DNA from: Balamuthia mandrillaris
Lineage: Eukaryota; Discosea; Longamoebia; Balamuthiidae
Assembly: GCA_031835245.1 (NCBI GenBank)
Contig: JAVKOQ010000019.1
Coordinates: 277,001 to 341,000, forward strand
Reading direction: 5' to 3'
Length of the DNA: 64,000 nt
Part shown: positions 54,694 through 63,226 of the stretch, one piece after another
Layout of the letters: each line of letters opens with the position of its first letter
Position numbering within the stretch: position 1 is the first letter of the stretch
The notes under the pieces: model-generated
Told to the model about the DNA's origin: nothing
Database searches by the model: none
Seen by the model: the letters and a program-made list of their open reading frames with translations, nothing else
Made by a program: the position numbers and the translations under genes

Positions 54694-55993
54694 ATGAGAA
54701 TGAATGCAGTAAAAGGAGGAGGAGCCAGGGCGCGGTTCGCCTGCCTTTTAGCCCTCCCCAGGCCCTTTGCGCTGACCGCACGAGCGAGCCGCCCCCGAGT
54801 CACCGCCAACTCTCCCTTCACCTCTTCCAAGGCATGGCTTTCCTCCTTCTCCTCCTCTTCGCCCCAACCACCACCCTCACAGAAGGAGCACGAGAACGAC
54901 TACAGCGGTCGTTCCACCGCCAGAACTCAAGTCACCACCGCTCTTTGGGAGAAACGAGTCCAAGCGCAACGCCTCCAGCTGGAAAAATTTGTGGAGGAGC
55001 TGACCGGGTCGGAGGGCGCCTCCAGCGGAGCACCGGCCGCCGCCGGCAAGAGCGCCGTGCAAGAAGACCTGGAGGCCAAGATCAACAGCGAAGCGCCTTC
55101 CTTTCTGCTGGACAAAACGCCGGCAGAGTCTGCCGTAGAGCTGTACCTGCCCTTCAGCACGGACCAAAACCTCAGAGAGCAGTATGTCAACTTTTATGGC
55201 AACCTTAGGTATTTAGCTTTCGTCACTCTCCCTTCCTTTCTTCTTCTTCCTTCTTCCTTCTCAACACGACTACCTCCATTCTCGTTGTTGCGCCAAAAGG
55301 TTCGGCAAGATCCTGGAAGATCTGGACGCAGCTGCAGGTAACGTGGCGCATGCCCATGCGGACGACAACAATCCAGTGACCCGCCCACTTACCATCGTTA
55401 CGGCCAGCGTGGACCGCATCGACCTCCTCGACAAGCTGCTGCCCGATCGAGACATGCGCATGAAGGGCTGCGTGACGTACGTCGGCAGCAGCTCCATGGA
55501 GGTGAGGGTCGATGTGGAGAGCAAGGACCCCGACACAGGACGCTTTTACCCTTTGATTCTGGCAACGTTCACCATGGTGGCCACTTTCGAGGGGCGACCT
55601 GCTCCCGTCAACAGGCTGAACCCCCAAACGGAGCAGGAGAAGCTGCTCTATGCGCTGGGACAGGATAACAAGCAGTGGAGGAAGCAGTGGGCCAAAGAGG
55701 CATTGCACGTGCAGCCACCCACGTTGGAGGAGCAGCAGCTCATTCATCAGTTCTTTACGGACAAGAAGTGGGAGGTTGTAAGGCAGGCACAAGCACAAGG
55801 CCAGAACGGTGGAGGTGCTCGAGGAATGGACGGAGCTGGCGAGGAAGTGGTGGAGATGAAGGACGCAAAGTTGCAGTCCGTCATGCTCTGTCAACCGCAG
55901 GACAGAAACACTAACGACAAGATCTTTGGTGGCTATCTCATGCAAAAGTCTTTCGAACTTGGTAACTATATTCCCTTGAATACAGCAGATATG

Positions 55994-56037
<44 letters not shown>

Positions 56038-56425
56038 TACTGCAAATGCTCACTATGAAAACACAGCATGGACCAACGCTCACGTTTACTGCCGAAGCCG
56101 CCCTTGGTTCTTGGCATTAGACCATGTGGCCTTCCACCGGCCCGTCTCCATCGGCTCCATCGTGAGCTTCAACTCGAGCATCGTCTACACAGAGCAACGT
56201 TCCTTGGGCGTCAAGGTAACGGCGGAGGTGGTCAACCCAAAGGATGGCTCCAAGCAAAGAACCAACACCATGCATTACACTTTTACCTGCCCGGAGAGCA
56301 GCATCCCCCACGTTCTGCCAGTTACCTATCAGGAGGCCATGGACTGGGTGGAGGGACGAAGACGATACCTGCGAGGCAAGGAGACTGCCACCAGGTTGGG
56401 AAGTAACCTCCTCAGATTTTACTGA
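54694..56425 (+). CDS. Acyl-CoA thioesterase, ACOT9/10 type, mitochondrial
   Basis: Three exons: 54694..55208, 55300..55961 and 56067..56425, in frame to 511 residues. The N-terminal ~65 residues are Arg/Ala/Ser-rich, a mitochondrial presequence. Two hot-dog domains follow: the first with NFYGNLR|FGKILEDLDAAAG, TIVTASVDRIDLLDKLLPDR and MKGCVTYVGSSSMEVRVDVE; the second with MLCQPQDRNTNDKIFGGYLM, FELAWTNAHVYCRSRPWFLA and LDHVAFHRPVSIGSIVSF. This is the order in animal ACOT9, which hydrolyses acyl-CoAs in mitochondria. The N-terminal hot-dog Asn/Asp positions appear kept. Intron 2 contains a GA run on the sense strand, unlike other introns here. Confidence 0.92.
55996..56034. repeat. (GA)n microsatellite in thioesterase intron 2
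   Basis: GA dinucleotide run on the sense strand of a plus-strand gene: the only purine-sense intronic array found in the window. Confidence 0.9.
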
Positions 56426-56564: not shown

Positions 56565-57012
56565 TCATCTTCGCTTGGTAAGGCCAGCAGGCGAAGGCAA
56601 TCCAAACAATCGCAATCTCGAGATACCTCCACAAGGGTATATCTTAAGCAGGGCATGGGTGCAGGTCTTGTGGCGTGCCTCCTCCATCACTTCAAACACG
56701 TGCTCCTGGTGAGGATGAAGCAAAGTGGGAGGGATCAACGTGAAGTAAGACGCTTGATGAAAGTCGTCACCGTCAAGACCTTCAGGAGCGAGGCAGCCCT
56801 CCAGAGAGAAGGCCACAGGGGAGTTGTTCTTGAAGTGGAGGGTGTCAATGCCAACCGTCACGATGTGCCCGGAGCGATGCAGCCTGACCACCGTCCAGTT
56901 CCAGACGGAGGAGAGGGGTCCTTTCATTGTGAAGATTTCATTTGGTTGGGCTGGTCGAAGTCTTGCTGTCTCCCATCCATCCCCTGTTTGTTTTTGTTAA
57001 CGAATTCGTTTG

Positions 57013-57049
<37 letters not shown>

Positions 57050-57716
57050 CGGTGAGCAGACAAACCCATGTTTATGCCCCGTCCTGGTTTGAGCATATTA
57101 CCAGGCAAGCTATAATGAGCGCTGCTGCTGGCCACCACTTGAGCATCAGAGCCACAAGCCAATTCCGTCAACTCTGGAAAGTTAAAGGATGACGGTAGTA
57201 CTTCCGTCAGTGTTGTGGATGTTTCACTCGCCTTCTTCTTCTTTGTTTTGCTCAGCTCTATTTTGGGATTCTTTGGAGGGACAAAGTCAGCGGGAAAACC
57301 GTTGTTGAAGTTGAGGGTTTGCAGCCATGCTTGCTTCAGTTGAAGGTCGATTCTAGCATCATCAGAGTCGCTCCTTCTACGCGGTTGCTCCAACGAGTCT
57401 TCCAACTCTTCACCGTAGAGCTCCAACGAGCAATGCCTCCATCAGGATAGCTGCAAAGACGAATGAAGCGAGTCCAAGGACAACCCTCACTCGCACTGCT
57501 ACTCTGGTCCTCCGCAGTTATCGTTGGGAAGTAATTTCTGGAGTTCGGTTTGAGGACGGAGCAAGGCACAGCGGTCACCCACTCAGCAATCTTGCGGCGG
57601 TTCACAATGTGTTCTTTGAGGCATTCAAGCCTTGCACCAGGTGCATGATTGCCATCAAAATGAGCCGTATCAACTGACGTTTGTATTGGATAGAAGGGAG
57701 GGACGAAGAGGGTGAG

Positions 57717-57750
<34 letters not shown>

Positions 57751-60549
57751 CGTACTATTTACACCATATATCTTACAATATTTTGGGAGTTCAATAACTG
57801 CAATATCAGGGGGATTCATGTTGTGTCTAGTACTCTGTTTGTGGGAATTGACAATCAGAAGAGAGCACAAAGAGAATAGAGAACGGAAAAACGCTAACCT
57901 CCCAGCCGTCATAGACTTGGCCCTGATTGCCAAAGGAATGCGGCTCAAAGCGCGGAAAGTTGTTTTTCAACAAATTGGCGGCTTCTGCGAAAGTCTCGTC
58001 AGAGACGAACAGTATTTTGGCCTCCGAAATGTCGATTTTGGGATATTCGGCCAGAAAAGAGAGATGAGATTGTGTGGATTGAAGGTACCTCTCCAACAAG
58101 GCAGGATTGTTTCGAAACGGATAGAGCAGGTACTTGCTGGTAAGAGCTGTGAAGTACTCCACAGGCTTTGGATCGGTGCAGAGAGACCGGACAATGGAGA
58201 GAGCAATGTCATATGCGTTCTTGGTCTCGGCGGTGAAAGGAATGTCGGCTGCCTCTTCTCCTTCCCCAAACTTAATTTGTTGCATGACATTGCGGAGATG
58301 GTCTTCCAACTGGGAGGCCGTCATGCGAACTTTTTGGCCCGAGCGGCTGATTATCTCTTTCTGATAGTTTACGATGCTCCATATTTCGCGTCTGGAACGT
58401 TCTAATGTTGCAGCATCTTCCATCAATCGGACTCTGCAATTTAGAGAGGATGAGGGAAGAGTCCTTTGTCTGTTGTGAAGTAGTGGGAGGGGAAACGAAA
58501 AAAAAGAAGGGCTTGTAGAATTGTACTAACCTAACTCCATCCTTAAATTTGGTGGTGAGACCAACGCATCCTTCTCCGGTGATGTAGGAGGTCAAGTATT
58601 GCAAGGCGTCGCTGAGGTTTCGCTCAAACTCTTCTTCAGTGCAGAACACTTCCTCTAAATTAGTGACCAACATTCTCTCGTGCGTTATCTTCTTGATTCC
58701 TTCCTGGAGCTTAGCTATCCTGTTTTCTCTTTCGGACTCAGACTCCGCTGTTTTGAGGTAAGAGGAGTTAACAAGAAAGATGTTGTTGGGTGGAAGTGAA
58801 GAAGAACAAGCGAAAGGCTCTACCTTTTCGTTCGAGTTCCATTTCAGTGATGAGTTCCTGGATAACTGGGACTAACTGTGGGTGAGCCAACCAACAGCCC
58901 TCTAAACCTCTCCCAACTTGCACTCGGAAATCTTGGGAGAACGCCTCCACAATCCTTTCCATGCTGTTCTCACTTCCGATTGTTGGTGGAACCATCGCGT
59001 TCATCCCACCAATAGGAATGGCTCCTCTTCTCTTACAAACGTCAACGATTCCCATTTGATATGCTTCCAAGTGCTCCACCACAATTCTAACAGCGAGGAG
59101 AGAGGGAGAGAGAGAGAGAGAGAGAGAGAGGGGAGGGGGAGAGAGAGGGAGAGATTAACATGGTAATTAACAAATGATAAGAAGGAGAAACAATACCTTA
59201 GGTTAGACTTGGGAGGCATAGAAAAGCGAGGTAAATTTTGATGAGCAGCTCCAATGCTGGCCATGTAGTCATGCCAGCCGCAATTAAGGCCAATAATATA
59301 GTTTCTTAAAGCGTAGAGTATCTCTTCCTTTTGATAGGCAGCGCCCACATTCTCGATGATGGCCAAACATTGAATCGTTCCAACTTTAATGTCTTGGTCG
59401 CTGGTATGCTCTCTCAATAGCTTTTCGCTGGTCTCGAAGAGTTTCGCCAGATAGAGGGCTTCTTCGAAGGTTTCAAGCTTTGGGATGTAAAAGGCCGGTG
59501 CTCGGTTCTCGTTCTTCAACGTAGACCAGTTGTGGAAGAGGTAAAGAGCAATGGTCATGAGGTGAGCTGGCATCGGATGACCATCCACCAAGAAATGGCC
59601 TTATAGCGGAACAAACAAATCTAGTGATAAGGAATAACAGGGAGATAAGAGGAGAGTATAGGAGAGAGGACGTACCATTTGGAAGGTGGAGGCCTTCGAA
59701 TCGAAGAATCATTTCAGCCATTTGCACGTCTTCCTCGGGCAACACCGTGTAACGCTTTCCCTTGGCGCTTCGGTAGTCCAACTGCCGACGGTTGGCCAAC
59801 GTGACGGCCGTTAGGCCTTCCAACAAGCTCTCTCTTGCCACGGTGGAGGAGTCCTCAAAGTCTACCATGAAGAAATGAACTCCGGACTTGAGGGCGTTGG
59901 CGATGATATTGGCTTTGGGAGGTCCCGTGATGGTGTCATGAAACCTGGCGAAGCGGGGCGGAATGTCGGCCACCTTCCAGGAGGGGTCTTCGCGGATGCC
60001 TCTGGTGTCCTCTCGGTAGCCCAACGCCACCGTGCCGTCCTTTAAGGGAACGTCCCTCAGCTGTTCTCCAGTGCGGGAGGCATCCTTGGCAGCCTCCGCC
60101 AGGCATTCCCTCTTCATTTTCCGGTGCTCCAAAAGGGAGGCCAGATTCGGGGAAAACTCCAGCGAAGCCCGGTAGAGCTCCACCGCATAGCGCAGAGCTT
60201 CGGGGCAGAGCAAGTCCAGGGAGGCGCCACCGTACCTCTGGGCGAAGGCGGCGTCCTCCTGGAGTGGGCCAACCACGCGAAGGCCCTCCACGCCAGGCAC
60301 GGGTTGGCTGTAGCGCTCCACCAGGGCGTCCACCACGGGGGCAGGCAGGTAGTCGTAGAACGCAGGGATAGGGCAGTTGCTCGCATCCCGCTGCGCCCGC
60401 TTGGTTTTTTGAGGTTGTTGTTTTACAGGGGATGAGGGGCCTGCTTTGCGTGATGGGTTGAGATCCCCCTCGCACATGGCGCTACGTGAAGGCCCTTGGG
60501 GCTGAACATTTTTCATTTCCTCCAGGCTGGGGTGTTGCAAAAGTTCCAT
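56565..60549 (-). CDS. Malate synthase - allantoicase fusion protein
   Basis: About eight exons on the minus strand, near 1,130 residues. The malate synthase A part (1-~640) has PAFYDYLPAPVVDALVERY, FHDTITGPPKANIIAN, HFFMVDFEDSSTVARESLL, NRAPAFYIPKLETFEEALYL, IIGLNCGWHDYMASIGAAHQ, GGMNAMVPP, LEGCWLAHPQLVPVI and VRLMEDAATLERSRREIW. The same exon (58433..57899) continues directly into allantoicase: AKILFVSDETFAEAANLLKN, GQVYDGWE. Two allantoicase repeats follow, with DTAHFDGNHAPGARLE, IRLCSYPDGGIAR, MLKPGRGINMGDGWETARLR and DTLHFKNNSPVAFSLEG, ending CTHALLKIYPCGGISRLRLF. Allantoicase makes ureidoglycolate plus urea; malate synthase uses the glyoxylate later released. No peroxisomal PTS1 ends the protein (..LTKRR). 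The frame shifts by one base near 57426-57441. Confidence 0.88.
57017..57047. repeat. (GA)n microsatellite in fusion gene intron
   Basis: Sense-strand CT run in the intron that splits NMG|DGWE of allantoicase repeat 2. Similar runs lie in its other introns at 57719-57747 and 59108-59155. Confidence 0.9.
57426..57441 (-). other. Apparent one-base frameshift in the allantoicase domain
   Basis: The frame reading SYPDGGIAR runs into WSSTVKSW, whereas the family's next strand (L-x-x-YGE) appears one base out of phase as LELYGEELEDS. Both frames are well conserved on their own side. No canonical GT-AG intron of usable size spans the join. Either a genuine 1-bp deletion, an assembly error in GCTCGTTGG, or an unconventional splice. 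Confidence 0.6.
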
Positions 60550-60977: not shown

Positions 60978-63226
60978 ATGGCAAGCGTAGCGGAGCAATC
61001 AAAACAAGCGGTGCAGAGCAGCCTCCAGATCTTTCGTAGCTCGAGGGTGGTGTTGGACAGCGAACTGAGACCAGCCGCTGTTATCGTAAGGTACTTTGTG
61101 GTTTCCGTCCGCGTTTTTTTTCTTCTCTCTTCTCAGTTGTGTGTCGGCCCAACATCTAATGTTTTGGCGTTCTGCAGAGATGGTGTCATCCTGAAAGTGG
61201 AGACGTTTGACTATGAGCCTTCCGGAGAAGACGGAGAAGTCCAAGTTCTTGACTTTGGCGATCTGATCCTGATGCCTGGTTTGTACTTTCCTCTGGTTTC
61301 CAAAAAAAAAAAAAGAAAAGAAAAAAAAGGAGATTAACTGGTTAATATTGAACAAACAGGTCTTGTGGACAGCCACGTTCACATAAACGAGCCCGGCAGG
61401 ACGGAGTGGGAAGGCTTTCATAGCGCCACGCGGTCGGCCGCCGCTGGCGGAGTGACCACTGTCGTGGACATGCCGTTGAATTGGTGCGTTGTTGATTCCT
61501 CTATTTATTTTCTTTTGTTCTCTCTGCTTCTCTCTCTTTCTCCTTGAGCTTTCTTTCTTCCCTTGCTTATCTGTGAGTTGGTGACTGACTTTTTCTGTTC
61601 AACTTAAACAATGGATAGTTCGCCAGTGACTACCTCTGTAGAGGCCCTTGACACCAAGCTGGACAGCACGGAAGGAAAGCTCTGGGTTGATGTTGGTTTG
61701 TTTAGTCTCATCCGCCTTGACATTTCTGTCTTTTACTGTGTTCTCCTATTTTGTCCTCGTCTATTGTGTCAGCCAACCAACTTGTTTTTGACTCCGTTTT
61801 TTCTTCTCCAGCCATGTTGGGCGGAATAGTACCCGACAACATCGACCAAATCAAACCGCTTGTTGCTCAAGGAGTTGTTGGCTTTAAGGTACTTTTTATC
61901 CCTACCCTTTTCTATCGTTGTAACGAACCGGTCACTGACGTTGGATATGTTTCCAGGCGTTCATGGTTCATTCAGGAATTGAGGAGTTTCCTCATGTGGA
62001 AGTCAATGATATTCGGCGAGCCATGCAAGAGCTGGCTGATTTAGAAGAAGAGGGTAAGCTGTTTCTTTATTAAGTTGTCAATTGTAAATTGGTCGCCTTT
62101 TAATCGTTTCTCGTTTCTCTACCTACAGGAAATGGAGTCGTATTCATGTTTCACGCAGAAGTAGAAGAGCCCATTAGCAAAGCTATGGAAATAATCAAAG
62201 CTGAGAAGAAACCTCCCCACAAATACGCAACCTTCCTCGAATCTCGGCCAAGAGAAGCTGAGAATCGAGCTATCGCTACCATCATCGAACTGTGCCGAGA
62301 ATATAGAGTTCCGTACGTATTACAAAATGAGAGAAAGAATGAGTGCAAGCACACGACTAATTTGTTAACACCGATATGTTGTGAAGTTGTCACATCGTGC
62401 ATCTTTCCTCTTCGGATGCCATCGAGATGATCCGGCAAGCAAAGAAAGAGGGTGTGCCCATCACCGCAGAGACCACGTTCAACTACCTGTACTTCAAATC
62501 GGAGGAGGTGCCCGATGGCAACACCCTCTATAAATGCTGCCCTCCTATTCGCGAAACTGACAACCGTGAATACTTGTGGTACGTTTTATTCCTAGTTTTT
62601 CTAGTGATTGTTTTCGTTGTTTTCGTTTGAGTGTTTCTCTTTTGGTCGATACTGTTTCTCATAATTATGTTCATTGCCAATTACAGGGAAGCCCTCAAAG
62701 ATGATGTCATAGAGTTAATCGTATCAGACCATTCCCCATGTACCTGCGACCTCAAGTTATTGGATAAAGGAGATTTCTTGGAGGTACACTGGCACCGTGT
62801 TTTCACCCTATTTGTATGTACACCATTTTTTTTCTAACCCTACTCATGCACAAACAAAAGGCATGGGGTGGTATTTCTTCTTTGCAACTGGGATTAAGCG
62901 TTGTATGGACAGAAGCCAAGCGGAGAGACATCCCAATCCCCCAACTGGCCAAATGGTTGTGCTATAACACATCCAAGCTAGTGAAGCTGGCCGACCAGAA
63001 GGGCAGCATCAAGCCAGGCCTCAGCGCTGACTTTTGCGTGTGGGACCCCGAACAGTCCTTCACGGTCAGCGAGGGACGGTTGCACATCAAGAACAAGAAG
63101 ACCCCCTACGACCAACAAACGCTTTACGGAGTGGTCCAGCACACTATTCTCCGCGGACAGGAGATCTATGGCAAGGGTGACTTTACCACGGATAAGCCTT
63201 TGGGCCAAGTCCTCACCGCTCAGTAG
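60978..63226 (+). CDS. Allantoinase
   Basis: About nine exons; the first are 60978..61090 and 61178..61278. The product is near 500 residues. Amidohydrolase signatures: [20 protein letters not shown] (HxH metal ligands), [20 protein letters not shown], a GVVGFKAFMVHSG segment with the carboxylatable Lys, [51 protein letters not shown] and IVSDHSPC (final Asp ligand), then [20 protein letters not shown] and [15 protein letters not shown]. These distinguish allantoinase from dihydropyrimidinase. It hydrolyses allantoin to allantoate, the substrate of the allantoicase encoded on the other side of the shared promoter. No PTS1 is seen at the C-terminus (LTAQ). The start was chosen as the first ATG in frame; upstream codons are non-ATG. 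Confidence 0.95.

Follow-up and report, generated by a model that had tools for sequence, protein, structure and literature searches.

A single open exon joins malate synthase to allantoicase

Does the amoeba Balamuthia mandrillaris encode malate synthase (MS) and allantoicase as one polypeptide and, if so, what would such a protein be for? The question is raised by a gene on the minus strand (60549-56565) of a 64,000-nucleotide stretch of contig JAVKOQ010000019.1 (positions 277,001 to 341,000; hereafter, the window), in which an N-terminal MS and a C-terminal allantoicase are encoded together. The initial annotation had claimed that the two enzymes are fused and that the fusion does not depend on a guessed splice site, and both claims were borne out. 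The junction exon (58433-57899, minus strand, 535 nt) lies exactly where it had been described and is open across its whole length, with zero in-frame stops. Its translation runs from VRLMEDAATLERSRREIW through ILFVSDETFAEAANLL to GQVYDGWE, and it holds both the MS motif MEDAAT and the beginning of allantoicase. The search for database proteins with both domains, which the annotation had recommended, gave eight with the same order among the matches listed, of which seven show both domains by Pfam and one, P0004, shows its MS half by weaker similarity only. Since an uninterrupted exon crosses the joint and the relatives share that joint, the fusion does not look like an artefact of the gene model, and an error of the model at this position was rejected. 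The MS-allantoicase fusion is thus confirmed in this gene.

The gene model comprises 8 exons and 7 introns (64-110 nt each, GT-AG in 7/7). Exon 1 (59676-60549; all exons and domains of the gene are on the minus strand) carries the start codon, an N-terminal extension, and the N-terminal part of MS up to the RFEGLHL motif with its predicted catalytic Arg. The MS barrel continues through exon 2 (59197-59599), which contains the Glu of IEN and the Asp of GWHDY as predicted Mg2+ ligands, and exon 3 (58824-59086), and it ends in exon 4 (58531-58747), where the MS C-terminal domain (MS_C) begins. Exon 5, the junction exon, adds the remainder of MS_C and the first part of allantoicase repeat 1. This repeat continues in exon 6 (57756-57834) and ends in exon 7 (57066-57673), which also includes a one-nucleotide frame change at ~57.43 kb, after which a linker and the first part of repeat 2 are read in the shifted frame. 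Exon 8 (56565-56983) completes repeat 2 and reaches the stop codon, with the C-terminus reading ...LTKRR.

In the part of the spliced protein that precedes the frame change, Pfam identifies the MS TIM barrel (PF01274, E = 1.5e-43; residues 280-523 of the spliced model, 58719-59712), MS_C (PF20659, E = 8.4e-12; residues 550-684, 58139-58640), and allantoicase repeat 1 (PF03561, E = 2.9e-31; from residue 724, 57432-58021). The second repeat, read apart in the frame after the change, gives E = 1.6e-31 (PF03561, 56598-57144); these nucleotide spans were derived by hand and include the introns that fall within them. Both MS domains pass the Pfam cut-offs (149 bits against 26.4 for PF01274 and 46 bits against 23.1 for PF20659), and the two PF03561 repeats, in two different frames, score 108.8 and 109.6 bits, respectively. 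Pfam detects no isocitrate lyase domain (PF00463) in the window fusion protein, which is therefore not a bifunctional MS-isocitrate lyase (MS-ICL). In the assembly (64.8 Mb in 775 contigs, to which all genome-wide counts refer), a single copy of this stretch was found and no second one.

Eight related proteins share the joint

The eight proteins with the same MS-then-allantoicase order are P0001, P0002, P0003, P0004, P0026, P0027, P0028, and P0029. The searches for relatives pick up only sequences that share short exact words; in the main one, 8000 candidates were scored and the best 120 of 410 matches were listed, while P0002 and P0004 lie outside these 120 and came from other protein searches. 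All eight come from jgi, lgn, or ena sources (0/8 from ncbi, uniref, or nr), and, within the searches made, no named sequence record describes an MS-allantoicase fusion. Viral contigs, scanned once with P0026, gave no match. Four of the relatives (P0026, P0027, P0029, and P0004) occupy most of their 2.9-3.5 kb contigs, which suggests that these sequences derive from transcripts.

Identity to the MS half of the window is 60.5% for P0027, 59.7% for P0026, 52.4% for P0029, 48.9% for P0001, 48.7% for P0003, 47.5% for P0028, 46.9% for P0002, and 24.9% for P0004 (578 columns); for canonical MS, it is ~30-35% among the best 120 of 410 matches listed. The segment that begins at the MS catalytic motif and closes immediately after GWE of allantoicase measures 181-189 residues in all nine sequences, i.e., the window and its eight relatives; in P0004, whose catalytic motif is gone, it was started at the aligned substitute. 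Three further sequences (P0040-P0042) are partial fusion-type MS in which the N-terminus is absent, no allantoicase match is present, and the tails resemble read-through into introns or shifted frames, so we counted them neither for nor against a standalone fusion-type MS. The record of P0041 comes from an ncbi source and carries no protein name.

Both halves of the fusion proteins group together in trees. In the MS tree (35 rows), the nine fusion rows and P0040-P0042 split from the 23 others with support of 100/100, where the others are 22 of the 111 listed canonical-looking matches (P0043-P0153) plus the MS-ICL of the same genome. This tree is midpoint-rooted and the split is an unrooted one; 12 of 32 inner branches are open, P0002, P0003, and P0004 have unusual composition, and the position of P0004 is unsure because of its branch of 9.82. 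In the allantoicase tree (23 rows, likewise midpoint-rooted with an unrooted split), the nine fusion rows split from 14 hand-picked others with support of 100/99, the window being represented by its first half only, which fills 40% of the columns. Because both halves group together, the fusion looks ancestral, and one ancient fusion would account for both splits. Altogether, the eight related joined proteins suggest that the MS-allantoicase fusion is not only real but also old.

The fused malate synthase is divergent and mostly keeps its predicted active-site residues

The window and seven of the eight relatives retain four alignment columns (Arg, Glu, Asp, and Asp); from alignment to Escherichia coli malate synthase A (MSA; 3cuz), we take these to be the catalytic Arg, the two Mg2+ ligands Glu and Asp, and the catalytic Asp. 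Around them, the fusion-type MS has GWHDY and RxEG, whereas the canonical rows displayed have GRWDY and RxRG. The TIGR01344 MSA equivalog model (cut-off 594.5 bits) gives 36.7-267.9 bits in P0026, P0029, P0028, P0002, and P0004, and the MS N-terminal domain PF20656, which is listed for canonical matches, was not detected by Pfam in the window or the eight relatives. Judged by sequence, the fusion-type MS is a divergent sister type of MSA and not canonical MSA. For the other half, the TIGR02961 allantoicase equivalog model (cut-off 277.9 bits) gives 147.5-273.9 bits in five of the eight relatives, with the best just under the cut-off.

P0004 (953 amino acids, from a 2935-nt contig of a jgi source) lost all four of the active-site residues. 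Its MS domain has no Pfam match and is recognized by TIGR01344 at E = 1.5e-9, and both of its allantoicase repeats are kept. Its MS half is thus a possible natural pseudoenzyme.

A frame change interrupts the allantoicase half

Past the first allantoicase repeat and ahead of the second, at ~57.43 kb, the reading frame of the window gene shifts by one nucleotide, so that the complete protein is unreadable in a single frame from this assembly. An intron was considered as the cause and rejected, since it would not fit and the coding sequence is contiguous on either side of a conserved motif. Local identity between the window and the eight relatives is 40-46% before the frame change and 33-47% after it (92 to 279 aligned columns, the minimum of 92 belonging to the incomplete P0028). 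Both repeats lie in one chain in seven of the eight relatives, and P0028 ends early. The change is either an assembly error or a true, recent lesion, which look alike in the assembly.

A predicted bifunctional enzyme of purine catabolism

Allantoicase produces ureidoglycolate, further cleavage of which yields glyoxylate, and MS then converts glyoxylate to malate. We propose, with a probability of about 0.72, that the fusion gene encodes one bifunctional purine-catabolic enzyme whose MS half disposes of purine-derived glyoxylate. In this scheme, the C-terminal half, with its two allantoicase repeats, would convert allantoate to urea and ureidoglycolate; the latter would give glyoxylate, with either a distinct ureidoglycolate lyase or allantoicase itself as catalyst; and the N-terminal A-type-like MS would combine glyoxylate with acetyl-CoA to form malate, which would keep the reactive aldehyde low and return its carbon to central metabolism. 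The proposal builds on the fused frame at the joint, the conservation of that joint, the retained MS active-site residues, and the adjoining allantoinase gene; from these we infer both activities, their shared role, and any benefit of a single chain. The proposal is also favored by the uricase and partial ureidoglycolate lyase matches of the genome, by a separate MS-ICL that may meet the needs of the glyoxylate cycle, and by the yeast and actinobacterial arrangements described below. The initial annotation had argued along the same pathway logic, which is plausible but incomplete, since ureidoglycolate must be cleaved between the allantoicase and MS steps; it had also made no mention of the frame change, of the adjacent allantoinase, or of a second MS, which lies outside the window and is joined to isocitrate lyase.

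Several observations weigh against the bifunctional reading. Ureidoglycolate cleavage intervenes between the two fused activities, and direct channelling is therefore not implied unless allantoicase cleaves ureidoglycolate too; co-expression and a fixed 1:1 ratio are the more likely gain of a single chain. In addition, the allantoicase half is interrupted by one frame change in this assembly, and P0004, with none of the four active-site residues in its MS half, makes MS activity look dispensable in at least one fusion member. Among the 80 bacterial allantoicase loci described below, 65 have no MS gene in their fetched flanks. Finally, the C-termini differ: P0001 ends in AKL, P0029 in AKM, P0026 and P0027 in SAL, P0002 in ASL, P0003 in GEQ, and P0004 in VPE (P0028 is incomplete), whereas the window gene ends in KRR, which does not fit the motif of a type 1 peroxisomal targeting signal. 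These differing ends do not support a shared location of the fusion proteins.

How far do these points favor other explanations? That two adjacent genes were merged in reading and their native products are separate is very hard to credit: in yeast, the two enzymes do come from distinct genes of one cluster, according to passages of PMC3646786, and the genes are fused in none of the 80 actinobacterial loci, but a single open exon spans the joint and the same joint recurs, with near-constant spacing, in eight other proteins. A second reading, likewise unlikely if less so, is that the amoeba is losing its allantoicase half: the frame change would be a genuine mutation, and function would remain with the MS half alone or with a truncated protein. 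A one-nucleotide change without space for an intron, in a stretch of which a single copy was found in the assembly, would fit such decay. Against it, no other lesion was seen, the splice sites are intact, conservation after the change about equals that before it, and this is the sole allantoicase found in a genome with uricase matches and an allantoinase; moreover, draft assemblies do contain single indel errors.

Equally improbable, in our judgment, is that the MS half serves chiefly as a structural or regulatory partner (e.g., as an acetyl-CoA or glyoxylate sensor or as an oligomerization platform), with allantoicase as the main activity. P0004 speaks for it, as it keeps the fused order with an MS half that fails Pfam and has lost its active site; in the allantoicase tree, P0004 lies within the fusion group, beside P0026 and P0027 at 85/84, and this nesting suggests that its loss is secondary. 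However, the four residues are intact in the window and in the other seven relatives, to which the window MS is 47-61% identical, and we continue to prefer a bifunctional enzyme. A more far-reaching version, which we regard as tentative and rather doubtful, is that in the eukaryotic fusion family allantoicase would also cleave ureidoglycolate, so that glyoxylate would be made and consumed in one protein; that the MS of a P0004-like branch would have lost catalysis and become a partner, perhaps one that senses acetyl-CoA or glyoxylate; and that each MS found in the amoeba would be chained to an enzyme leading toward its own glyoxylate. Allantoicase activity yields urea and glyoxylate in some animals, according to passages of PMC3743077, and the fused allantoicase might likewise perform both steps.

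Related arrangements in other organisms

In yeast, DAL1, DAL2, DAL3, and DAL7 lie in one cluster, and Dal7 is a malate synthase that removes the excess glyoxylate of allantoin catabolism, as described in passages of PMC3646786 and PMC3743077. On this account, Dal2 (allantoicase) and Dal7 provide the same two activities in allantoin breakdown as those predicted for the fusion protein; the yeast genes are separate and clustered, whereas Balamuthia has one polypeptide, with allantoinase also adjoining. The fusion would thus most likely be a one-chain counterpart of Dal2 plus Dal7. For another fusion, of allantoicase with ureidoglycolate hydrolase, passages of PMC3646786 report cDNA across the whole open reading frame and deletion mutants. 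There, as here, allantoicase is joined to an enzyme that acts further along its pathway, but that partner catalyzes the consecutive step, whereas MS precedes allantoicase in the chain and skips one step. Passages of PMC1630690 describe bifunctional MS-ICL and ICL-MS enzymes of the glyoxylate cycle in Euglena and nematodes, in which MS is likewise joined to the enzyme producing its glyoxylate. Unlike these, the fusion studied here has purine breakdown as its likely glyoxylate source, and its MS half falls outside the canonical tree rows. In fish, a link between MS and the glyoxylate of purine breakdown has been proposed for a malate-synthase-like protein (in passages of PMC8919083).

The bacterial loci are the best 80 of at least 503 confirmed allantoicase matches, with flanks of up to 10 kb, and all appear to be Actinomycetota, judging by title names; some are incomplete, so that neighbor counts are lower bounds. 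Fifteen of the 80 have an MS gene within the flanks that were fetched (L023, L025, L030, L037, L043, L045, L046, L053, L054, L058, L065, L067, L071, L074, and L098), on the strand of allantoicase in 14 of these 15 and opposite to it in L065 alone, and it is fused to allantoicase in 0/80. At one MS gene per several Mb, by our estimate far fewer than one such locus would be expected by chance; the loci are in many cases from related families. An allantoinase-like match is present at 56/80. The flanking MS score 336-805 bits with a canonical model vs 86-259 bits with a fusion-type model. In these 15 loci, MS accompanies allantoicase, as in the fusion, but as a separate gene.

In the literature searched, which was limited to one paper collection and to passages of its papers, we found no description of an MS-allantoicase fusion, and the passages on malate synthase and allantoicase do not mention one. 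A paper on metabolic fusions (PMC4921024) names isocitrate lyase/malate synthase, and the word "allantoicase" is absent from its main text. Metabolic fusion enzymes as such are already known, and the MS-allantoicase combination appears undescribed within this literature. As a conserved gene fusion, it provides evidence that some eukaryotes use MS to consume the glyoxylate released by purine breakdown. The family would also be a good system for channelling tests, with P0004 as a natural dead-domain comparison.

Purine and glyoxylate genes in the Balamuthia genome

Head-to-head with the fusion gene lies an allantoinase gene (60978-63226, plus strand), the two start codons being 428 bp apart. Splicing by eye gives 475 amino acids with no lesion, and TIGR03178 matches at 524.5 bits (cut-off 357.85). 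The genome has three allantoicase matches, all within the fusion gene, and no other allantoicase was found. Uricase matches with identical scores occur at G000:C102:132502-133347 and G000:C115:32023-32868; these two loci are possibly uncollapsed haplotypes. For ureidoglycolate lyase (PF04115), there is one partial match on another contig (positions 61-129 of 162, 35.9 bits, cut-off 23).

The second MS locus is on C107 (74.1-77.8 kb; L008 3100-6790), where MS lies N-terminal to isocitrate lyase in one gene, in the order known from Euglena. This is the single isocitrate lyase match in the genome, and no MS was found besides this MS-ICL and the fusion gene. The role of the MS-ICL could be in the glyoxylate cycle. 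Within the reach of these searches, this amoeba thus appears to have both its MS in fused form, with an enzyme on the path to glyoxylate as partner in either case, and their presence in one genome suggests that glyoxylate handling favors tying the consumer to the producer.

Downstream of the fusion gene, and convergent with it, an open frame at 55217-56425 (plus strand) resembles an acyl-CoA thioesterase by eye. Long CT or GA dinucleotide tracts occur in several introns and intergenic segments between 56000 and 63610 of the window. Elsewhere in the assembly, diagnostic oligonucleotides published for B. mandrillaris, with sequences from passages of PMC7473209 and PMC2612680, assign the genome to this species or to a very close relative. 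The 18S primer BalaF1451 has exact matches on contigs C10 and C24; the BalaP1582 probe is likewise exact at C10, and the reverse primer BalaR1621 is exact at C24 but finds no match at C10 even when three mismatches are allowed. The RNase P probe has an exact match at G000:C71:109352-109378 and a two-mismatch match at G000:C103:92779-92805, corresponding to two copies or two haplotypes.

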